A stretch of 64,000 nucleotides of DNA from Janthinobacterium sp. 17J80-10. GTDB lineage: Bacteria; Pseudomonadota; Gammaproteobacteria; Burkholderiales; Burkholderiaceae_D. This document shows, piece after piece, positions 14,000-23,985 of this stretch (positions are counted from its first letter, which is position 1; each line of letters starts with the position of its first letter). Made by a program: the position numbers and the translations under genes. The DNA is taken from positions 2,852,001 to 2,916,000 of the forward strand of contig NZ_CP035311.1 in the NCBI RefSeq assembly GCF_004114795.1, read 5' to 3'. A model generated the notes under the pieces. It searched no databases and had not been told where the DNA came from. It saw only the letters and a program-made list of their open reading frames with translations.

Positions 14000-14024
14000 A
14001 AAACGGCCCATCATGGGCCGTTTT
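14000..14024 (+). terminator. Rho-independent terminator
   Basis: AAAACGGCCCA, loop TCA, TGGGCCGTTTT: a perfect 11-bp stem flanked by A and T tracts, so it can work in both directions. It separates the small gene at 13649 from the tRNA-Ser transcribed toward it. Confidence 0.85.
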
Positions 14025-14031
14025 GCATTTC

Positions 14032-14121
14032 TGGCGGAGGCTGTGAGATTCGAACTCACGGACGGGTCACCCCGTCGGCAGTTTTCAAGACTGCTGGTTT
14101 AAACCACTCACCCAAACCTCC
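14032..14121 (-). tRNA. tRNA-Ser(TGA)
   Basis: A 90-nt cloverleaf on the minus strand. The acceptor stem GGAGGTT pairs with AGCCTCC, followed by discriminator G and an encoded CCA (14032-14034). The anticodon loop CTTGAAA gives anticodon TGA, reading UCA-type serine codons. A T-arm GTTCGAATC and the long variable arm typical of class II serine tRNAs are present (CCGACGGGGTGACCCG region). Confidence 0.96.
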
Positions 14122-14170
14122 TTCGGGGGCCTAATTATACCCAAGGCGCTCGGCGGTGCCACAAGATTTT

Positions 14171-15415
14171 CTAGTCTTGCAAGAACATTTCTTGCAAATC
14201 ATTCAAGAAGCGCTGCCCAAGCGCCGTTGGCATGATGACCTGGTGGTCGCGGTACAGCAATCCCTTGGCTTCGGCGGCATTCAGCTCGGCCTCGATCGTG
14301 TTCACGGTCAGCCCGGTGCGTTCGGCAAACAGGTTGACGGCAAAGCCGTCGCGCAAACGCAGGGCGTTCAGCATGAATTCAAAGCCTAGTTCGCCCCGGC
14401 CGATTTCCCTTTCCTCTTGCACGGAATTGCCGGCGGCAACTTGCTGCATGTACGCCCTGGGTTGCTTGTAGCGCGCCTGGCGCACGATGCGGTGCGGGAA
14501 AGACAGCTTGGAATGGGCGCCGGCGCCGATGCCCAGGTAATCGCCGAACTCCCAGTAATTCAGGTTGTGGCGCGCCTGCCTGCCGGCCTGGGCATAGGCC
14601 GAGACTTCGTAATGGGTGTAGCCGGCCGCGGCAGTCGCCTCTTCGATCATGTCCTGCATTTCGGCGCTGGCGTCGTCGTCCGGCAAGGCCGGCGGATACT
14701 TGGCGAAATAGGTGTTCGGCTCCAGCGTCAGGTGGTAGAGCGACAGGTGCGGCGCTGCCGCGGCGATGGCCAGGGCGAGGTCGGCGCGCGCTTCGGCCAT
14801 GGTCTGCTGTGGCAGGGCATACATCAGGTCGAGGTTGAAATTGTCAAAGCTGGCGTGGGCAATCTCGATGGCGCGGCGTGCCTGGTCGCCGTCATGGATA
14901 CGTCCCAGCGCTTCGAGATGGCGCGAATTGAAACTCTGGATGCCGATCGACAGACGATTGATGCCGCTGTCGCGATACGACTTGAATTTTTCTGCTTCGA
15001 AGGTACCCGGGTTGGCTTCCATGGTGATTTCCGCCCGGCCGTCGAGCGGCAACAGCGTGCGGATATCCGACAGCAGCCGCTCCAGGCCTGCGGCCGACAT
15101 CAGGCTGGGCGTGCCGCCGCCGATGAAAACCGTATGGATGCGCCGCCCCCAGACCAGCGGCAAGGCGCTTTCCAGGTCCGCGCGCATGGCGTCAAGGTAT
15201 TCCTGCTCTGGAAAACCGCCCTGCGCTTCATGCGAATTGAAATCGCAATACGGGCACTTGCGTACGCACCAGGGAAAGTGCACGTACAGGGCCAGCGGCG
15301 GCAGGCTTTGCAAATTGAGGATGCCGGGCTTCAGGTAGGCATTGGCTGCCTGGGCCGCGGCGGATGGGCCGGCACCCGAGGCCGGCGCCATGCCAACAGG
15401 CTTGATTGGAATCAT
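14171..15415 (-). CDS. hemW: HemW-like radical SAM protein
   Basis: A 414-residue radical SAM protein of the coproporphyrinogen III oxidase-like family. The cluster motif is CVRKCPYCDF (C-x3-C-x2-C) around residue 52, and a HemN C-terminal domain follows. HemW proteins bind heme and are thought to be heme chaperones rather than the anaerobic CPO HemN, which has an extra N-terminal motif missing here. The start at 15415 overlaps the stop of rdgB by four bases (ATGA), showing translational coupling in an rdgB-hemW operon. The first 40 residues are Ala/Pro-rich and poorly conserved, so a slightly later start is possible. Confidence 0.93.
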   Translation of the reverse strand: MIPIKPVGMAPASGAGPSAAAQAANAYLKPGILNLQSLPPLALYVHFPWCVRKCPYCDFNSHEAQGGFPEQEYLDAMRADLESALPLVWGRRIHTVFIGGGTPSLMSAAGLERLLSDIRTLLPLDGRAEITMEANPGTFEAEKFKSYRDSGINRLSIGIQSFNSRHLEALGRIHDGDQARRAIEIAHASFDNFNLDLMYALPQQTMAEARADLALAIAAAAPHLSLYHLTLEPNTYFAKYPPALPDDDASAEMQDMIEEATAAAGYTHYEVSAYAQAGRQARHNLNYWEFGDYLGIGAGAHSKLSFPHRIVRQARYKQPRAYMQQVAAGNSVQEEREIGRGELGFEFMLNALRLRDGFAVNLFAERTGLTVNTIEAELNAAEAKGLLYRDHQVIMPTALGQRFLNDLQEMFLQD

Positions 15416-15996
15416 CGGAGTTTTTCAACCAGCAGGCGCATGGCCTGGCCGCGGTGCGACAGGCGATTCTTTTCTTCCGAGGTCAACTCGGCAACCGTCT
15501 TGTCCAGGGTGGGCAGCCAGAAATGCGGATCGTAGCCGAATCCGCCGGCGCCACGCGGCGCCGCAATGACTTCGCCATCCCAGCGCCCGTCGGCAATCAG
15601 CGGCTGCGGATCGTCGGCATGGCGCACGAATACCAGCACACAATAATAATAAGCGCGCTTGTCGGCCTGGTCGGCCAGTTCGGCCACCAGCTTTTCACTG
15701 TTGCGGGTATCCGACTTCGGTTCGCCCGCATAGCGCGCCGACCAGACCCCGGGCGCGCCCTGCAATGCCTGCACACAAATACCCGAATCGTCCGCCAGTG
15801 CCGGCAAACCGGTCAGGCGCGACGCATGGCGTGCCTTGGCCAGGGCATTTTCGACAAAAGTCTGGTGCGGCTCATCCGCTTCGGGCACCTGGAAAGCGCC
15901 CTGCGGCTGCAAGTCAAAGCCCAGCGGCGCCAGCAGCTGGGAAAATTCTTTTAGCTTGCCTGCATTATTGGAAGCGAGAACGAGGGTTTGGGTCAT
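15412..15996 (-). CDS. rdgB: XTP/dITP diphosphatase (RdgB/HAM1)
   Basis: A 194-residue house-cleaning pyrophosphatase that hydrolyses XTP, dITP and ITP to monophosphates, keeping deaminated purines out of nucleic acids. Recognisable motifs are LASNNAGKLKEFSQLL at the N-terminus, ALADDSGICVQALQGAPGVW (metal-binding acidic pair), SARYAGE and GFGYDPHFW. Length and motifs are normal for the family. It is the first gene before hemW and overlaps it. In many Burkholderiales rph lies directly upstream of rdgB; here 5.2 kb separate them. Confidence 0.95.
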   Translation of the reverse strand: MTQTLVLASNNAGKLKEFSQLLAPLGFDLQPQGAFQVPEADEPHQTFVENALAKARHASRLTGLPALADDSGICVQALQGAPGVWSARYAGEPKSDTRNSEKLVAELADQADKRAYYYCVLVFVRHADDPQPLIADGRWDGEVIAAPRGAGGFGYDPHFWLPTLDKTVAELTSEEKNRLSHRGQAMRLLVEKLR

Positions 15997-16013
15997 GAAT
16001 GGATTGTATAAAA

Positions 16014-16532
16014 TTACCAGCCACTGGTCAGCTGGTCGATCGTGGCTGGCGTGATCAAACCGGAATGGGCGATGCGCTCACCGCGCGCATTAAACCAGTA
16101 GCTGCGCGGTTTTTCCCCATGCCATTTGGGGTCTATCATATACCGCAATTGCTCCGCGGGTGCTTCCCCGTACGCCCAGGCGTTGCCGGGCAAGCCGAAG
16201 GCGGCCAGCCGCTGGCGCATCATCGGCCCCAGCTCAGGGTCGGCAGCGGCATCGGTCGAGAGCGTCACCACGCGCAAGGCCTTGCGCTTGCGCTGTTCCT
16301 GGCCAAGCGTTTTCAAACTGGCGATGCAATACTGGCAATCCAGCGACCAGAGCACCAGGACAAAGGGCTTGCCTTGCTGCTGCGCGACCAGGCGCTCGAA
16401 ACTGTCCGGCTCAAATGCCCGCAGGGTTTGCGCTGCCGGCCCAGTTGCGGCGGCAGGCGCCGCGGCCACACCGGCGCCCAGAAAAACCGCCATACCAATT
16501 GCGGCAACAATTCTTGCTGATACTGTCTTCAT
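16014..16532 (-). CDS. Exported thioredoxin-fold protein (TlpA-like)
   Basis: A 172-residue protein with an N-terminal signal peptide (MKTVSARIVAAIGMAVFLGA...) and a thioredoxin fold. The redox motif is CQYC in LWSLDCQYCIASL around residue 64. C-x2-C with this environment resembles periplasmic TlpA/ResA reductants. The start ATG 16532 has GGAGAAG about five bases upstream. It begins two bases after the stop of the BNR-propeller gene and is the last gene of a TonB-receptor locus. A role in reducing a metal site or a cysteine of a partner is plausible but unproven. Confidence 0.8.
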   Translation of the reverse strand: MKTVSARIVAAIGMAVFLGAGVAAAPAAATGPAAQTLRAFEPDSFERLVAQQQGKPFVLVLWSLDCQYCIASLKTLGQEQRKRKALRVVTLSTDAAADPELGPMMRQRLAAFGLPGNAWAYGEAPAEQLRYMIDPKWHGEKPRSYWFNARGERIAHSGLITPATIDQLTSGW

Positions 16533-16534
16533 GT

Positions 16535-17782
16535 TTACTTCTCCGCATTGACCGCTGCGTTCGCAATGACAGGCACGATGCGCATGCCTTCTTGTTGAGT
16601 GCGCCAGGCCAGCACGATGCCGTCCGGGGTCTTCAGCAGGCGGGGTTGGTCCGAACCCTGGGACGTGCGCGCCAGTTCCATATCGCGCCAGGTCAGGCCG
16701 CCATCGCCGGAATGCTTGCCGAGGATAGCCGTGCCCTTGCCATCGAACTGGCGCCACGCCAGCACGACATGCTTGCCGAGAACAGCCACATCGGCATGCG
16801 CGGCCTGCGCCGTGCCGAGACGCTGCGGCGTGCCCATGACGCCGGCCGGACTGACGCTGGCATGGAACACCCCGCCCTCGTCGCCCTTCAGGTTGAACCA
16901 TACCTGGTGGCGCGTGCCATCGTCGGCATAGGCCAGCCCCGGGCCATGATGGGGGCAGGCATCGATGCGCCAGTCGTCGAAGGTCGCGCGCGCCGGCGCC
17001 GTCCCTTTGCCATCCGGCGCCAGCACCGCAATGGCATGGTCGCGGGCGTTCGGCTCGAACACATGCCGCCACAGCGCCACCGGCTTGCCGTCCGGCGTCA
17101 GCGCCATGGCGATGCGGCAGCATTCGCAGCTATGGTCCGCCAGCCTGTAATCGCCCCTGAAGCTGTTGCCGGCATCGTCCGACACGGCGTAATACACGGC
17201 GGAGCCGCGATAAGGCATACCTTGGGCCTTTGCATCCGCTGCGCCGCGCCCATCGATCCAGGCGATATAGATCCTGCCAGCACCATCAACGATCATGGAG
17301 CCGAAGGCATGGGCAATCCTGTCACGATTGGCATGCACCGTGACAGGATCAGAAAAACTCCGGCCGCCGTCCAGCGAACGGGCGAAACGGATTTCACCCA
17401 CGTGCGGCTTGGCGATCGGCCGCGTGTAGGCAACATAGATTTCGCCCTTGCTGCCGAACGCAAGCTTTGGACGATCATCACCGCCCGCGGCGACCGGCTC
17501 CGGCGCCTGCTGTACTTTCCTCGGCGCCGACCAGGTCTTACCCAGGTCGGCGGACTGGCGCAGCACCACGAAGTCGCCGCCGTCGAGCGATTCTTTTGTC
17601 GCGACCCAGAGGTGCCCTTCCCTGTCCACTGCGGCGGAAGTGCCGAGCTCGGTGCGTCCGGCGACCCTGGGCGCGGCGTGTTCCTCGTGCGCATGAGCGC
17701 TTTGCGCCGAACCGGCCGCGAAGGCAAGCACGCAATAAAGCATCGCCAGCGCAGTGCGTGCTTCATACCTTACTCGGCTCAT
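16535..17782 (-). CDS. Exported sialidase-fold (BNR/Asp-box) beta-propeller protein
   Basis: A protein of about 415 residues with a signal peptide ending near SAHAHEEHAAP and repeated Asp-box-like turns (SADLGKTWSAP, SLDGGRSFSDP, SDDAGNSFRG, SGDGGLTWRDM), indicating a six-bladed sialidase-type propeller. True sialidase catalytic residues cannot be confirmed, and the genomic setting argues against sugar cleavage. The mature N-terminus has a short His-rich patch (HAHEEH). ATG 17782 is chosen because GGAGGAA is best spaced for it; two further ATGs lie just upstream. It lies 93 bases after the TonB receptor and directly ahead of the thioredoxin-fold gene, so the three form a probable operon. Confidence 0.75.
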   Translation of the reverse strand: MSRVRYEARTALAMLYCVLAFAAGSAQSAHAHEEHAAPRVAGRTELGTSAAVDREGHLWVATKESLDGGDFVVLRQSADLGKTWSAPRKVQQAPEPVAAGGDDRPKLAFGSKGEIYVAYTRPIAKPHVGEIRFARSLDGGRSFSDPVTVHANRDRIAHAFGSMIVDGAGRIYIAWIDGRGAADAKAQGMPYRGSAVYYAVSDDAGNSFRGDYRLADHSCECCRIAMALTPDGKPVALWRHVFEPNARDHAIAVLAPDGKGTAPARATFDDWRIDACPHHGPGLAYADDGTRHQVWFNLKGDEGGVFHASVSPAGVMGTPQRLGTAQAAHADVAVLGKHVVLAWRQFDGKGTAILGKHSGDGGLTWRDMELARTSQGSDQPRLLKTPDGIVLAWRTQQEGMRIVPVIANAAVNAEK

Positions 17783-17875
17783 CATTTCCTCCATTTGATA
17801 ATTTGTTCAATTGGCGCTCCAGGTTCAAACTGCGGCTCACTGCATTTCTCCTGGAAGCCCTTTCCCTTCAATCAC

Positions 17876-20251
17876 TTACATGTCGAATTTCAGCTCCGCG
17901 GTGTAGCTGCGCTGCGGATAAGGATGGAAATTCCAATATTTGTAATTGTTGAGATTGTCGATGCCAAAGGCCGCTGTCCATTGCTTGGCAACCCGGTACC
18001 GCACGCGCAAATCTGTCGTGAAGTACTTGCTCACCCCTTGGTAGGTGAATCCATTCACATCCGCGTTGTTCAGAGTGCGATACTGCGGGCCGCTATAGCG
18101 CGCACCCAGTGCAGCAGTCCAGCGCTCGTCGAAGCGGTAGCTGATCAACGCAGTGGCGCGCCATTCCGGAATGTTGGGTTGCCGTTTGCCGATGGTATCG
18201 CCCGGCGCTGCCACAAAACCGCTGTTTTCCTTGATGATGGAATCGGCATAGGTAATGCTGCCCGACAAGTCCAGTCCCTTCTTGAAGACATCGTTGCCGT
18301 TAAATGCCATTTCCAGGCCATTGGTATGGATGCGGCCGACGTTTTGCACGCGGGTGACGTTGGTGTTGGTCAGCGGGTTTAAAGCCGTCTGCGAATAGAT
18401 CGAATCGCGGGTATCTTCCGTGAAGAACGTCAGGCGCAGTATGCCGCTGCCCAAGTCCTTTTCAGCCGTGAGTTCCGTTGTCCATGATTTTTCCGGCTTG
18501 AGGTTCGGATCATTGATGAACTGCGCATTGACGGTGGTCGTGGCGCCATAGAGTTCCGATACGGTTGGCATACGCACCGCACGGCCAATTGACGCCTTCA
18601 GCACGGTGTCGCTCCGCCATTGATAAGACAGCGCCGCTTTAGGCGAAATGAAGTTTTCGCTGCGGTCGGCATAGCGTGCTTCGGCCGGGGCAAGGCCGCC
18701 AGTCCTGGTGAAACCGCTAGAAGCAGTCCAGTTTTCAAGCCTTGCGCCAAGTACGGCTTTCCACTTCGGATCAAATTTCCAGGCATCTTGCGCCCATAAG
18801 CTGCGCAATGTCGCCTTGCCGCCAACCTCATTGGCCAGCGCGCCGGCAGCGTCGGCCTGCCAGTTTCCGGCGATATTGGAAGTGAGGTAATTCAGCGTGT
18901 AGCTATCTTGTTGCATGCCAAAATCGACAATATGCGCACCCTTGATCCCTTGAGGACGCCAGGTGCCTTTGAATGCCAGTGTATTCCAGCCGGTACCGTC
19001 GCCATCGGCGATCGTGCCGGCACCACCGGTCGCGGCGCTCGCCATAGGATTGCTCCCCGCGTTCTGGCGCTTCTGGTCTTTGTCGTAGTCGTAGAGGCTG
19101 GCGGCGACCTCCCAATCCCATGCGCCTTTCGTATTACTTTTCACCGAGAGGCCGTGCATGACGTGAGTCAATTTTTCATTGGTCAATGCAAAGTCGCCCC
19201 CGGTTAAGGCTTGGGCACCGGTGTACGCGAGCCCATTGATATTGATGGGACCGCTGTATACCGGCTGGCCGGCCGCATCGCGCAAATACGAAACGGGTCG
19301 ACCCTCCGACGAATTTTGCCAAATGCCTAGCAGGTAGCTGGCGCGAATGGTCGGCGTAATATCGTAGGCCAGCTTGATCTTGGCGTGATCCTGAATCGTG
19401 TGGTATTCGGTGCCAGTGCCAAGAACATAGATCGGCGCATTAGCATTGTTTCTATCCACTAGCATCCCGGTCACGGGAGTTCCGGCTGCGCTGGCAATCC
19501 CGTTACTGAGAAAACGCGTCGGAAAGGTCAACGGCTGGCCATGACTGTCAGTGTGATTGTAGTTAAAGAACCACGACCAGTCGCCACTCCTGTCGCCGAC
19601 CGAGGCGCTGGTCTGCCACGCGTTATACGTCGTATCGGTGTTGTAAAGCTTGAAGGGTTGCGAGACATAGTTGGCCTTGGCATGGGCCTCGAATTTTGTC
19701 GGCATGCGGGTGACATAATCCACCACCGCACCGACGGAGTTGCCAGGATAAGCTGCAGAGAACGGGCCATACATTACGTCGGCTCGCTCGATTTCTTCGG
19801 GGGTAACCATTCCCCAGCGCGGCGGAAAACTCAACCCCCCGACGCCATTGCCCAGATAATTGGATAACAAGATGCCGTCTGCATAGACGGCCGAACGCGC
19901 GCTGTTGCCGGTGCCTGAAGCACGGCTGGACAAAATGGCATGGTTATAGTCGCCGATATAGCGTTTGCGCACCAGCAGGCTGGGAAAATACTTCAGCGCA
20001 TCCTGGCTGTCGGTTGCATTGACGGTCGCTTCGATCTGTTCCTTCGTCGTGCCTTCCATCGTCGTCGGGATTTGCGTCGGCAACGACGTCGGCCGTCCGC
20101 CGTAAACGGTAACGGTGCCAAGCTCTTTGACGGGCGCGTCGGTTGCCACGCCCTGGGCGAAAGCGTTCGTCATGAAAAGTTGTGCAATGACCAATGCCAT
20201 TACGGTAGGCGTCGTCAGCGGCAAGCTGCTGTTTTTTTTCTGCGTGACCAT
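17876..20251 (-). CDS. TonB-dependent outer-membrane receptor
   Basis: A 791-residue TonB-dependent receptor. The signal peptide ends at about TNAFAQG. A TonB-box-like stretch (VKELGTVTVYG) leads into the plug domain (SSRASGTGNSARSAVYADGI, GPFSAAYPGNSVGAVVDYVT), and the C-terminal barrel ends YTAELKFDM with the aromatic/hydrophobic alternation typical of outer-membrane proteins. ATG 20251 is preferred since GGAAG lies five bases upstream. The substrate is not directly readable. A DUF2946 protein 239 bases upstream is a type of gene often found beside copper-related TonB receptors, so a metal ligand is a reasonable guess. Confidence 0.87.
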   Translation of the reverse strand: MVTQKKNSSLPLTTPTVMALVIAQLFMTNAFAQGVATDAPVKELGTVTVYGGRPTSLPTQIPTTMEGTTKEQIEATVNATDSQDALKYFPSLLVRKRYIGDYNHAILSSRASGTGNSARSAVYADGILLSNYLGNGVGGLSFPPRWGMVTPEEIERADVMYGPFSAAYPGNSVGAVVDYVTRMPTKFEAHAKANYVSQPFKLYNTDTTYNAWQTSASVGDRSGDWSWFFNYNHTDSHGQPLTFPTRFLSNGIASAAGTPVTGMLVDRNNANAPIYVLGTGTEYHTIQDHAKIKLAYDITPTIRASYLLGIWQNSSEGRPVSYLRDAAGQPVYSGPININGLAYTGAQALTGGDFALTNEKLTHVMHGLSVKSNTKGAWDWEVAASLYDYDKDQKRQNAGSNPMASAATGGAGTIADGDGTGWNTLAFKGTWRPQGIKGAHIVDFGMQQDSYTLNYLTSNIAGNWQADAAGALANEVGGKATLRSLWAQDAWKFDPKWKAVLGARLENWTASSGFTRTGGLAPAEARYADRSENFISPKAALSYQWRSDTVLKASIGRAVRMPTVSELYGATTTVNAQFINDPNLKPEKSWTTELTAEKDLGSGILRLTFFTEDTRDSIYSQTALNPLTNTNVTRVQNVGRIHTNGLEMAFNGNDVFKKGLDLSGSITYADSIIKENSGFVAAPGDTIGKRQPNIPEWRATALISYRFDERWTAALGARYSGPQYRTLNNADVNGFTYQGVSKYFTTDLRVRYRVAKQWTAAFGIDNLNNYKYWNFHPYPQRSYTAELKFDM

Positions 20252-20490
20252 GATTACTTCCATTTCGTTAAGACAAGCCTGAGGTATTTCGCTGAAGCCA
20301 TTCTTTCCCAGACCGGCCTTTCATGACCTTGATGTGAATCAGGTCTTTGCAAGCCCGGGCCTTTGCCCGGCTTGCGAAAGCCGGCAGGGACAGAAAGAAC
20401 GTCGCTCCGTACAGACGGGCTTTTTCTCAGGATGACGTGAAACGGCAGGCATGCCCGCGCATGGACAAGGCCAGCCGTTATCAGTTGAAA

Positions 20491-20883
20491 TCAGGATTGC
20501 GCAGGTGGCGCACGGGATTGCGGACTGGCCCACACGAACAGCGGGCGTGGCGCCTGATAAAACAGCGAGGGGAAGGGAAAACTGCCCTGATAGGCAGGCA
20601 AGACAAACGCAACAGATGACGGCAAGGCAGGCATGCCGCCATGGGTCTGGCAGAATGGGCAATGATCAAAGGCGCTGGCAGGTTCGCCATGTGTGGGCGA
20701 CGCCGGCCCCAGGTCCAGCTTGATCAGTTTCAGGCCTGCCGAGGAACAGATTTCGGACCACAGGAAACGTGACTTGCCGGAATCGGACAGTGCATGCGAA
20801 ATCGACGGCGCGAGCGCAGCCATCAGGATCGCCAGGCATGCGAAGGCCGCGGTGATGCGTCTGGTGAACCGGGAGGAAGTCAT
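20491..20883 (-). CDS. DUF2946 family protein
   Basis: A 130-residue protein with an N-terminal hydrophobic segment (ITAAFACLAILMAALAPSIS) and the DUF2946 hallmark DHCPFCQTHG followed by a second hydrophobic stretch and a C-terminal RAPPA-type ending. The Cys/His motif looks metal-capable. DUF2946 genes frequently neighbour TonB-dependent copper receptors, which suggests a joint role with the receptor downstream, but biochemical function is unknown. The ribosome-binding site is weak. The spacing to the TonB gene (239 bases) may hold a separate promoter. Confidence 0.8.
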   Translation of the reverse strand: MTSSRFTRRITAAFACLAILMAALAPSISHALSDSGKSRFLWSEICSSAGLKLIKLDLGPASPTHGEPASAFDHCPFCQTHGGMPALPSSVAFVLPAYQGSFPFPSLFYQAPRPLFVWASPQSRAPPAQS

Positions 20884-20911
20884 GCCGAAATTCTATCACG
20901 CCAGCTGCGCA

Positions 20912-21223
20912 TCAGCCTTGCATGCGCAGCATTGCCGAGATGATCCTGATCTGCTCCTGGTAGCGCAAGGCATGCTCGGGCAAACCCATCTGCTGGGCGG
21001 CGTAGTACAGCTCTTTCCAGAAATGCGCTTCTGTTTCATGGCCGCTGTGCAGGTAGCCAATCTGCTCCAGGGCATCCAGCGCGGCCGGGCATTCGCCCAG
21101 GCGCAGCGCTGTGTGATAGCCGCGCTCAAGGTCGGCCGGACAATCAAGCGCTTCCGGCAAAAAGTAGCGCGCTGCCGCCAGCAGGCGCAGCGCCTGTTTC
21201 GATTCCTGTGGCCAGTTGCGCAT
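20912..21223 (-). CDS. Small helical hypothetical protein
   Basis: A 103-residue, all-helical-looking protein with TPR-like periodicity (LRLLAAARYFLPEALDCPAD, ALRLGECPAALDALEQIGYL). It has no signal peptide or membrane segment. It starts 23 bases after the rph stop, so it is probably co-transcribed with rph. I do not recognise a family. It marks the left border of the conserved rph side before the DUF2946/TonB block. Confidence 0.65.
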   Translation of the reverse strand: MRNWPQESKQALRLLAAARYFLPEALDCPADLERGYHTALRLGECPAALDALEQIGYLHSGHETEAHFWKELYYAAQQMGLPEHALRYQEQIRIISAMLRMQG

Positions 21224-21246
21224 GTTTGTCTGCCTGCACGCCGGGT

Positions 21247-21987
21247 TCAGCCTGCCAGGCCCAGCGCCTCTTTCTGCAGGCGGTTCAACTGGACGATGCC
21301 GGCCTGCGCCAGGTCCAGCAAACGGTCCATGGTGTTGCGGTCGAAGGCTTCGCCCTCGGCGGTGCCCTGCACCTCAATAAAATGCCCGGCATCGGTCATC
21401 ACCACGTTCATGTCGGTGTCGCAGGCCGAATCTTCGAGGTAATCCAGGTCCAGCACCGGGGTGCCGCGATACACGCCGACCGAGATCGCCGCGACAAAAT
21501 GCCGCAACGGAATGGCTGCGATCAGCTGGCGCGCGGCCAGTTGCGCGAAGGCGTCGTAGGCGGCCACCATGGCGCCGGTGATCGAGGCAGTGCGCGTGCC
21601 GCCATCGGCCTGGATGACGTCGCAATCAAGATGCAGGGTGCGCTCGCCGAAGCCGTTGAGGTCGAACGCGGCGCGCAGGGAGCGGCCGATCAGGCGCTGG
21701 ATTTCCTGGGTGCGGCCGGACTGCTTGCCCTTGGCGGCTTCGCGGTCCATGCGGCTATGGGTGGAACGCGGCAGCATGCCATATTCGGCAGTTAGCCAGC
21801 CTTGCCCCTTGCCCTTTAAAAAGCCGGGCACCTTGTCTTCGATGCTGGCCGTGCAAATGACCTTGGTGTCGCCGAATTCGATCAGCACCGAACCTTCGGC
21901 ATGCTTGGTGTACTGGCGGGTCAGGCGCACTGGGCGCAATATGTCGGCGGCGCGGCCGCTCGGGCGAATCTCGGCAGAAATCATCAT
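21247..21987 (-). CDS. rph: Ribonuclease PH
   Basis: A 246-residue phosphorolytic 3'-5' exoribonuclease that trims tRNA 3' ends. It starts with an RPSGRAAD motif and includes [33 protein letters not shown] and [18 protein letters not shown], all diagnostic. The length is normal (about 240). Two adjacent ATGs (21987 and 21984) are possible; neither has a strong ribosome-binding site. It lies 45 bases downstream of the PP2C phosphatase gene on the same strand. Confidence 0.96.
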
Positions 21988-22032
21988 GGGGTCAGAGTGG
22001 GTTAAATAATTCAGTGCAACGAACCCCGCAGT

Positions 22033-22962
22033 TTACCCCTTGCCCGTGACCTTCGAGGATTTTTCGATGGCGTTGCGGATTTCCTCGATTGCCCTTTCGA
22101 TGTCGTTATCATCGTACAGATCGGCGCTTTCGAGGTCGGCATGGCGCGGCGCCTCGATGGTGGTCGTGACGGCGCCGATCGGCAGCACATTGGTCGTGAT
22201 CGAATTGACATCGTCGCTGCCATCGCCGCCTTCCCACATCATGGCCAGGGCGGTCACGTTGTCACTGGTCTTGCCGGCGATGCTGGCGGCGGAATTGACC
22301 AGTTGCGGCACGGCGCGCACGATGGTGTTGTTTTGCAGCGCATGGGCGAGCTGGTGGTCGGGCAGGATCGACCACAGGCCATCCGAACACAGCAGCATCA
22401 CGTCGCCGGCCTGCAGGCTGGCGTTGCGCGAGATCTCGACGATCGGCATGTTGGGCGCCCCCAGGCAATTGAACAGCTTGTTGCGCTCCGGGTGCGTATC
22501 GCGCTCGGAAGGATCGACCTTGCCCTGGGCGATCAGGGTTTCGATGCGCGAATGGTCGCGCGTGCGCATGAGGATCTGGCCATTGCGCATCCAGTACAGC
22601 CGCGAATCGCCGCAGTGAGCCCAGAAGGCAGTGTTATGCTGGATCAGGCAGGCGACGATGGTGGTGCGCGGCGTTTCCGGCAAGTTGTTGATGGCACGAT
22701 AACGGTGAATTTCGCGGTGCGCGGCAAAGAAACTCTCTTCCAGGAAGCGCTCCGGCTTTTTGACATAGGGGTTGGCATTGCGCTGGAATAGCGAGGCGAT
22801 GGTTTGCATGGCAATCGTCGCCGCCGCATCACCCTGGATATGTCCGCCCATGCCGTCGGCCAGCAGCAACAGCAGGGCATCCCGCGTAAAGCTGTACCCC
22901 ATGCGGTCCTGGTTGACCTTGCGGCCGCCGATATTGCTTTCTTGGTAGACGGAAAATCGCAT
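22033..22962 (-). CDS. PP2C-family serine/threonine phosphatase
   Basis: A 309-residue PPM/PP2C-type phosphatase. The N-terminal motif GRKVNQDRMGY supplies the conserved metal-binding aspartate, LLADGMGGH the second, followed by CGDSRLYW and LLCSDGLW. These metal-ligand motifs appear intact, so it should be active with Mn or Mg. The last 70 residues form an acidic extension. It is 12 bases downstream of a Hanks-type kinase gene, giving the kinase/phosphatase pair found next to rph in Burkholderiales. The targets are unknown. Confidence 0.93.
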   Translation of the reverse strand: MRFSVYQESNIGGRKVNQDRMGYSFTRDALLLLLADGMGGHIQGDAAATIAMQTIASLFQRNANPYVKKPERFLEESFFAAHREIHRYRAINNLPETPRTTIVACLIQHNTAFWAHCGDSRLYWMRNGQILMRTRDHSRIETLIAQGKVDPSERDTHPERNKLFNCLGAPNMPIVEISRNASLQAGDVMLLCSDGLWSILPDHQLAHALQNNTIVRAVPQLVNSAASIAGKTSDNVTALAMMWEGGDGSDDVNSITTNVLPIGAVTTTIEAPRHADLESADLYDDNDIERAIEEIRNAIEKSSKVTGKG

Positions 22963-22974
22963 GACTTATTCGGC

Positions 22975-23985
22975 TTATTGATACTGGGTGGTTTCCTGGA
23001 GGGTATCGAGCGCGTCCTTGTCCTTGCCGAACCGGCTGAACAGGCCGCGCACTTTGCGCGACAGGTTCTGCAGGCTTTCAGTGCCCTTCTTTTCCGGGAT
23101 CGGTTCACGCAAGGCCTTTTGCAGTGCAAACACGCTTTGCGGCCGCTCCAGGGAATCGAGCTTGAGGCTCCAGCGAATCACGTCGAGCAATTCGCTCGAA
23201 TAGATGCCCTCCAGCTTGCGCAAGTGGCCTTCCATCTTGTCCGAGACCTTGCGCTGGTCCGCAGGCTGCGGCGGCGCGCCCACCATGCAGGCGAACATCG
23301 AGGCGCCGATGCTGTAGATATCGGTCCAGGGGCCGAGATTGCCGCTTTTCTCGTAGAGTTCCGGCGGCGCAAAGCCCGGCGTATACATCGGATACAGCTT
23401 GGGCTGGTCGGTCTTCAGGGTCTGGCGGGCCGCGCCGAAATCCAGCAGGATGGGCGTGCCATCGACGCGCAGGTAGATATTGGCCGGCTTCAGGTCGAGA
23501 TGCAGCAGCTTGTTGGTGTGCACTTCACGCAGGCCCATCATCACGTGCGAAAACATCTTGCGAATGAAGCGCTCGGAAACGATGGGCCGCTCGCCCTTGT
23601 CGCGCCGGCGCAGGATGTACTCCTGCAGGGACCGGCCGGACTCGTAGGCCATCACCATGTAGACCGTATCGTTGGCTCGGAAAAAATTCAGCACGCTGAC
23701 CACGTTGGGATGGGCGATGCGCGCCAGCGCCCGGCCTTCCTCGAAAAAGCACTTCAGGCCAATGCGGAAGATGGGCAGGTTTTCCGCGGCGATGATCGGC
23801 ACCAGCTCACCAGGCTCGCGCAGCGCCAGCGAACTGGGCAAATATTCCTTGATGGCGACAGCGTTGCCGTCTTCATCGTATGCAAGATAGACAATACTGA
23901 AGCCGCCGGATGCGATCTTCTTTACAATGCGGTATCCGGCAATTTCCAGGCCGTCTGGCAAGGGAGCATTATTCTGGGCTGCCAA
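22975..23985 (-). CDS. Hanks-type serine/threonine protein kinase
   Basis: A 336-residue eukaryotic-like kinase. Visible motifs are the glycine-rich loop (KKIASGGFSIVY), the VAIK lysine (VAIKEYLP), the catalytic loop HLDLKPANIYL, DFGAAR and an APPE-like segment (FAPPELYE). The catalytic loop has HLD rather than HRD, making it a non-RD kinase that may not need activation-loop phosphorylation. No transmembrane helix or extracellular sensor domain follows; the C-terminus is short and charged. It is the first gene of the kinase-phosphatase-rph transcript and diverges from yicC. Confidence 0.93.
   Translation of the reverse strand: MAAQNNAPLPDGLEIAGYRIVKKIASGGFSIVYLAYDEDGNAVAIKEYLPSSLALREPGELVPIIAAENLPIFRIGLKCFFEEGRALARIAHPNVVSVLNFFRANDTVYMVMAYESGRSLQEYILRRRDKGERPIVSERFIRKMFSHVMMGLREVHTNKLLHLDLKPANIYLRVDGTPILLDFGAARQTLKTDQPKLYPMYTPGFAPPELYEKSGNLGPWTDIYSIGASMFACMVGAPPQPADQRKVSDKMEGHLRKLEGIYSSELLDVIRWSLKLDSLERPQSVFALQKALREPIPEKKGTESLQNLSRKVRGLFSRFGKDKDALDTLQETTQYQ

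Follow-up and report, generated by a model that had tools for sequence, protein, structure and literature searches.

The 64,000-nucleotide stretch of the Janthinobacterium sp. 17J80-10 genome analyzed here (NZ_CP035311.1, positions 2,852,001 to 2,916,000; the window) carries between rph and rdgB-hemW four genes that appear to form one minus-strand operon, encoding, in order, a DUF2946 protein, a TonB-dependent outer-membrane transporter (TBDT), an exported beta-propeller and a small thiol protein with a CQYC active site (the CQYC protein; Table 1). All four were found where the first-pass annotation, made from the DNA letters, had placed such a block. A 103-residue open reading frame (ORF) and rph lie upstream of the DUF2946 gene on the same strand, and the TBDT gene follows that gene after a gap of 227 nt; the TBDT and propeller genes are separated by 81 nt, the propeller stop and the CQYC start by 2 nt, and the CQYC gene and rdgB by 17 nt. 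For the CQYC protein, a longer ORF (16014-17123) was rejected as having an over-extended start, and the shorter one was taken. The genome is a single contig of 4.02 Mb with one DUF2946 gene.

Table 1. Features of the block and its borders (positions in the window; A2, A3 and A7 are alignments)
Feature	Positions	Strand	Evidence or remark
rdgB, right border	15412..15996	minus	Ham1 family, 210.9 bits
ResA/TlpA/CcmG-like thiol protein (CQYC), 172 aa	16014..16532	minus	AlphaFold2 model; thioredoxin/AhpC family matches sub-threshold only
CQYC active-site codons (C66, C69)	16326..16337	minus	no substitution of either Cys in 104 rows or in A7 (63 rows)
Exported beta-propeller, 419 aa	16535..17794	minus	BNR_2 30.9 bits, just below cut-off 31.4; AlphaFold2 model
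C-P-H-H-G codons (C280-G284)	16943..16957	minus	A2: C280, P281 and G284 invariant, H282/H283 at least 90%
C-E-C-C codons (C223, C225, C226)	17117..17128	minus	invariant in A2 (39 rows) and A3 (76 rows)
TBDT, 795 aa, cluster c1	17876..20263	minus	PF00593 174.6 bits; PF07715
Gap between leader and TBDT, 227 nt	20264..20490	minus	candidate site of Rho-dependent termination if as in B. pertussis
CruR-like leader protein gene, DUF2946, 130 aa	20491..20883	minus	PF11162 73.8 bits, cut-off 23.7
RAPP arrest-motif codons, leader residues 124-127	20503..20514	minus	position computed from ORF start
CPFC (CXXC) codons, leader residues 75-78	20650..20661	minus	position computed from ORF start
103-aa ORF	20912..21223	minus	between rph and rdgB also at the empty site, locus L212, 62% identical
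rph, left flank	21247..21987	minus	RNase_PH 99.2 bits

In Bordetella pertussis, the DUF2946 protein Bp2923, or CruR, is described as sensing copper through a CXXC motif and stalling the ribosome through a RAPP motif, with 45 residues between the two motifs and a 162-nt gap before the TBDT gene (Roy et al. 2022, PMC9426467). The window protein has both the domain, well above the family cut-off, and the CXXC-45-RAPP spacing: its CPFC is followed by 45 residues, RAPP, three residues, the stop codon and the 227-nt gap. On the coding strand, C exceeds G in every 78-nt segment from 20919 down to 20322 and the relation is reversed beyond, so that most of the leader gene and gap resembles, as far as a count without a control comparison goes, what a rut-type region would look like. 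We consider the window DUF2946 protein to be most likely the copper-sensing leader CruR. The first-pass annotation had counted it among the exported proteins of the block, and we abandoned this assignment, together with any structural part in the uptake machine, in view of the motifs and spacing that it shares with CruR, in which they were shown to matter. The regulator is thus of a known kind, and it is mainly the leader that gives the block its copper label; that the operon is under copper control is a conclusion we hold with high confidence. Among 37 DUF2946 copies upstream of propeller modules like that of the window, RAPP or RGPP is the terminal motif in 32, and the spacing is 45 in 24. 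Of 300 genomes of the order, 108 contain DUF2946, mostly in one to three copies each. In one of these genomes (locus L245, G076:C1:1250000-1264000), three DUF2946 genes lie on one strand within 7 kb, with a TBDT gene after one or more of them, a possible serial CruR array.

Relatives of the propeller were found in 47 of the 300 genomes, 40 of them at E below 1e-40, by a whole-protein search, and stretches for 40 loci were drawn from these 47 genomes (the order-level loci). A scan of named genomes with one short peptide pattern, CPHHG, confirmed at least 559 relatives on hundreds of contigs, and the 80 loci kept from it (the named loci) include, by record title, Rhodocyclales, Gallionellaceae, Steroidobacter, Rhodanobacter and Opitutaceae. 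A TBDT gene directly precedes the propeller gene in 70 of the 80 named loci and 35 of the 40 order-level loci; among the 77 named loci whose stretch reaches 1.2 kb or more upstream, the number is 68. A CQYC-type gene directly follows in 65 of 77 named and 35 of 39 order-level loci with enough sequence. DUF2946, sought in the loci with our own HMM built from 19 seeds instead of that of Pfam, precedes the module on its strand in 24 of 80 and 12 of 40 loci, respectively, and occurs nowhere else in these stretches; the HMM missed two of 40 DUF2946 loci. Among the named loci, nine of 77 lack the upstream TBDT, 12 of 77 have no thiol protein directly downstream and four of 80 carry one upstream. The recurrence of the same module in scores of genomes is more than chance, and the linkage of DUF2946 to the module is, by our own estimate and not by computation, far above chance. 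The first-pass annotation had proposed one functional unit for the acquisition of a metal, possibly copper; the survey did not find the block unlinked elsewhere, the TBDT, propeller and thiol protein being tightly linked even if DUF2946 heads only the minority of loci given above, and the unit, the metal and, probably, copper were retained from this proposal, without DUF2946 as a part of the exported machinery.

Pfam tallies of the neighbors covered 84 of 85 upstream genes (A4), the full set of 92 downstream genes (A5) and, of 127 genes following CruR-like genes, 98 (88 in A6 and 10 others); they did not extend to 45 further upstream genes from loci carrying DUF2946. In loci without DUF2946, TonB/ExbB/ExbD genes are found upstream, as are Fer4 (Fer4_5) and DsbD_2 proteins (four genes each of 84), and CusF_Ec is represented by four proteins among the 92 genes downstream of modules. 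In locus L153 (3919-5632), the TBDT gene comes directly after genes for a Fer4_5 protein and for a membrane protein of the DsbD_2 family, which may point to a source of electrons in the membrane for the module. CcoG is reported to be a copper reductase (PMC13038864).

The AlphaFold2 model of the propeller, built from 76 sequences (pLDDT 88.3, pTM 0.85), predicts seven sheets, counted from the DSSP line. In the second of two structure comparisons, lectins of Photorhabdus, whose PLL-type members are seven-bladed, were the best match (Z 30.9, 2.8 Å over 307 residues); no entry among its best 50 matches is a copper protein by title, which is not evidence of absence. Five cysteines are present in the window propeller: C223, C225, C226 and C280 and, in the signal region, C21. 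Alignment A3, which leaves out five of the 80 named loci with an in-frame stop in the match range, contains 29 invariant columns; for CPHHG it is circular, this motif having been the search pattern, and A2 is the fair test. Of these columns, E99, H162, R183, C223, C225, C226, R227, C280, H282 and H283 are predicted by the model to lie in loops leading from strand D to the next strand A or from strand B to C, with D181, R251 and D252 at strand ends towards those loops and H296 at the opposite end. In propellers generally, loops of these two kinds form one face, on which the set is accordingly predicted to lie. That the propeller binds copper at this Cys/His set seems to us somewhat more probable than the contrary. 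Two further loci (L221 in G191 and L229 in G072) contain short propeller-like ORFs of 174 and 196 residues, divergent from a CruR-headed TBDT operon, which may be propeller remnants or half-length forms.

Distant relatives of the propeller are annotated as 'sialidase family protein'. Those on plasmids, with 23-25% identity, keep the four cysteines as well as D181, R183, R243 and R251, and read VN or HC at H282/H283. From 63 records found, eight plasmid loci in four arrangements were viewed, and copper genes lie beside the distant relative in all eight. The cluster shared by five of them holds a copper oxidase and copper-binding and azurin-like proteins; elsewhere the neighbors are a multicopper oxidase (Tritonibacter), CopC, CopD and a multicopper oxidase (Roseobacter litoralis) or, on a plasmid of Methylomagnum ishizawai (L261), CopC, with amoA/amoB-annotated genes a few kb away.

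The CQYC protein is predicted by its AlphaFold2 model (pLDDT 90.6) to have a thioredoxin fold with CXXC, and its export was predicted by eye from the N-terminus. The closest structures are MPT53 (1lu4; Z 13.6), ResA (Z 13.4) and CcmG (Z 12.1). It shares with ResA, TlpA and CcmG the fold, the CXXC motif and a conserved Pro after Gly-Glu, but is only 7-20% identical to the best 50 structures listed and scores below the curated family cut-offs (TlpA model, 15.5 bits against 230; AhpC-TSA, 16.4 against 26). Across 104 rows, W62, C66, C69, D134, W137, G139, E140, P142 and G158 do not vary; A7 consists of 62 of the 70 listed thiol-protein ranges and the window. TlpA-type proteins reduce the copper sites of Sco and CoxB, and because of this we ascribe a reductive role to the CQYC protein. 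Whether it acts on the propeller we regard as evenly balanced.

The TBDT of the window differs from the transporter that follows CruR in B. pertussis, CrtA. It did not match the sequence of the CrtA structure 9RVQ (the other is 9RVX) at E 0.001, whereas the TBDT of L249, a CruR-TBDT-PepSY_TM locus, matches it with 785 bits; the window TBDT also lies outside the cluster of the latter and is followed by the propeller instead of PepSY_TM, and membership in the CrtA family was rejected on these grounds. PepSY_TM is reported to follow CrtA-family TBDTs in more than 75% of loci (PMC12914433). When 170 TBDTs of the loci were clustered at 30% identity, that of the window fell into c1, which, at 66 members, is the largest cluster. 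Some CruR-headed loci likewise have a window-type TBDT, followed there by PepSY_TM (L234 and L251) or a DUF1775 protein (L238), and genes following in CruR-headed loci without a propeller further include PepSY_TM (several loci), PCuAC, CopC, MbnP and MauG-type proteins. Near propeller loci, PepSY_TM appears once among 92 downstream genes and is not among the 25 families listed for 84 upstream genes.

On a propeller tree of 116 rows, from which five contigs present in both sets of loci had been removed, the type of the neighboring TBDT changes at least 22 times, against a least possible 4 and 40.7 in shuffles; the tree was made by a quick method, with five TBDT clusters, 98 rows assigned and 18 of 116 without an assigned TBDT. 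Even the same chromosomal site holds a c1 transporter in the window and a c4 transporter in a congener (G354) and in Paucimonas lemoignei. Because the partner switches so often, also inside the genus of the window, the propeller/thiol pair is likely to act on the metal and not on a single chelate. In our reading, the TBDT is matched to whichever chelate is available, and the periplasmic step falls either to PepSY_TM (CrpH), a putative copper reductase (PMC13038864), or to the propeller pair.

From the computed gene content, motifs, linkage, empty site (described below), partner exchange and fold predictions, we consider it likely that the block is an operon for supplying the periplasm with copper under copper starvation, in which a CruR-controlled importer works with a propeller/thiol pair handling copper; that it imports copper, a cargo that we infer, is very likely. 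The leader mechanism of stalling, copper relief and Rho was demonstrated for B. pertussis CruR (PMC9426467), and identical motifs and spacing suggest it for the window. At low copper, the ribosome would stall at the RAPP end of the nascent leader and Rho would be kept off the mRNA, so that the three downstream genes are made; copper at CPFC would relieve stalling, and Rho would end transcription in the 227-nt gap. The TBDT would carry a copper chelate over the outer membrane, and the propeller would receive the copper, or strip the chelate, at C223/C225/C226/C280 with H162, H282 and H283. The CQYC protein would supply electrons, keeping the propeller cysteines reduced or driving copper release by reduction, and together the two would do the job of CrpH, which comes after CrtA in Bordetella.

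Several observations weigh against this interpretation. Of the 80 named propeller loci, 56 lack DUF2946, and the control and cargo of such loci are therefore unproven; propeller genomes are also not significantly richer in DUF2946 (18 of 40 against 90 of 260, p = 0.22). The window TBDT lies outside the CrtA family, with no close characterized relative found, and has Gln at residue 451, where 94% of 64 aligned cluster members have His. The four invariant cysteines could be disulfides. Five of the eight plasmid loci represent one inherited cluster, and copper genes are likewise present in two of three control stretches from other parts of three of these plasmids, so that the plasmid context is weak evidence, which supports but does not prove the copper link.

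Two alternatives deserve to be weighed at length, each of them unlikely in our view. According to the first, the operon serves copper and the propeller has no metal site, being a scaffold, a glycan- or peptidoglycan-binding protein or a TBDT-docking protein, with its four cysteines in structural disulfides that the CQYC protein isomerises or reduces at folding. The fold of lectins and sialidases and the likeness of the CQYC protein to ResA/CcmG-type thiol proteins are consistent with such a role. However, two inter-blade loops of a single face are predicted to hold the four cysteines, alongside His and Asp residues that are also invariant, which would be odd for structural disulfides; they are kept in relatives at loci without an annotated CQYC-type neighbor, and relatives of the propeller sit with copper genes. 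According to the second, to which we give a similarly low probability, the TBDT-propeller-thiol module imports different metals or nutrients by lineage, CruR is added only for copper, and the propeller is a general metallophore handler. This would account for the minority of named loci headed by DUF2946 and for partner TBDTs in several clusters, but it fits less well with the Fer4_5 and DsbD_2 proteins found upstream where DUF2946 is absent, with CusF_Ec after some modules, and with the copper oxidases, CopC and azurin-like proteins beside distant relatives.

A copper-tolerance operon, with DUF2946 as a CutF-type leader that raises expression with copper, is very unlikely: CutF is indeed described as a DUF2946-like leader of opposite sign, but the spacing, RAPP and long gap of the window match CruR, and the proline-rich motif of CutF is described as slightly different (PMC9973294). 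A TBDT importer would, moreover, be expected to be copper-repressed. Least credible is an enzymatic propeller, a sialidase or other glycosidase processing the ligand before or after uptake, which could appeal to the annotation of the distant relatives, to four Asp-boxes in the window protein and to Foldseek, where sialidases ranked first at 17-18% identity: the RIP motif, which carries the catalytic Arg of the six-bladed GH33 sialidases, is found in none of the 76 aligned sequences, Photorhabdus lectins fit the seven-sheet model better (over about 310 residues), and the invariant set is one of Cys and His, so that a sialidase function was rejected.

The propeller shares fold and Asp-boxes with Photorhabdus PLL-type lectins and GH33 sialidases, and differs from both in its invariant Cys4/His set, its lack of the RIP motif and an identity below 20%. 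In nitrous oxide reductase (NosZ), the CuZ copper site sits on the hub of a seven-bladed propeller with His ligands; the likeness to the window propeller is one of idea only. NosZ itself (E below 1e-60, partial matches included) is present in 14 of the 40 propeller genomes with relatives at E below 1e-40 and in 35 of 260 others (p = 0.0019), and we rejected a tie between it and the module because the relatives are clustered and the window genome shows no more than a C-terminal match (21.7 bits). Closest in layout is cruR-crtA-crpH of B. pertussis, which, as described (PMC9426467; Hachmi 2026, PMC12914433 and PMC13038864), begins with a DUF2946 CXXC-45-RAPP leader and continues with a long gap, a TBDT and a periplasmic-handling gene. 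The window shows the same succession of parts, with the leader gene as the probable first gene; its TBDT is of another family, and the propeller and CQYC protein replace the membrane protein CrpH. TccA of Caulobacter is reported as another copper TBDT (PMC12617631). A BNR/sialidase-like propeller linked to a copper TBDT was not found in open-access full texts, the search having excluded subscription journals and preprints. Within that literature, the regulator and the general kind of system are known, and the propeller/thiol pair as a partner appears to be undescribed; the first-pass description of the system as poorly described thus remains apt for these two proteins and not for the regulator.

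Bacterial copper uptake over two membranes is still poorly known, and the propeller/thiol pair is a widespread candidate for the step from outer-membrane import to delivery, a pair that stays in the periplasm while outer-membrane receptors are exchanged. We speculate that the large 'sialidase-like' periplasmic propeller family represents a new class of copper proteins, in which a Cys4/His face takes copper from a TBDT-delivered chelate and releases it via a dedicated thioredoxin-fold reductant, as a soluble alternative to CrpH; we advance this tentatively, as slightly less probable than its negation. The propeller reading suggests what many proteins annotated as 'sialidase family' may really be.

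An Rfam scan of positions 14000-23000 returned a tRNA at 14035-14121 and nothing else. The promoter scan gave one weak match (16031-16003), fewer than in shuffled sequence, and terminator-like sites numbered 11 against 6.3 expected, to which no interpretation is attached.

The site between rph and rdgB was surveyed in 29 rph loci of other family members, those of the best matches in a search of 79 genomes. The first-pass annotation had called rph and rdgB commonly adjacent, and rdgB indeed lies within 1.5 kb downstream of rph in 24 of these loci; one holds the block, and four have neither within reach. Two of the genomes belong to the genus of the window: G324 (locus L212) reads rph-orf103-rdgB-hemW, an empty site, and G354 reads rph-cruR-TBDT-propeller-thiol protein-rdgB-hemW. 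Since orf103, the 103-residue ORF, is present at the empty site, we place the window block between it and rdgB; this ORF is probably native to the site and outside the block. In Paucimonas lemoignei the order is rph-cruR-orf103-TBDT-propeller-thiol protein-rdgB-hemW, and the ORF, found between rph and cruR in the window, stands there between cruR and the TBDT gene (L101:4703-5657) and thus inside the block, in the stretch that CruR would control.

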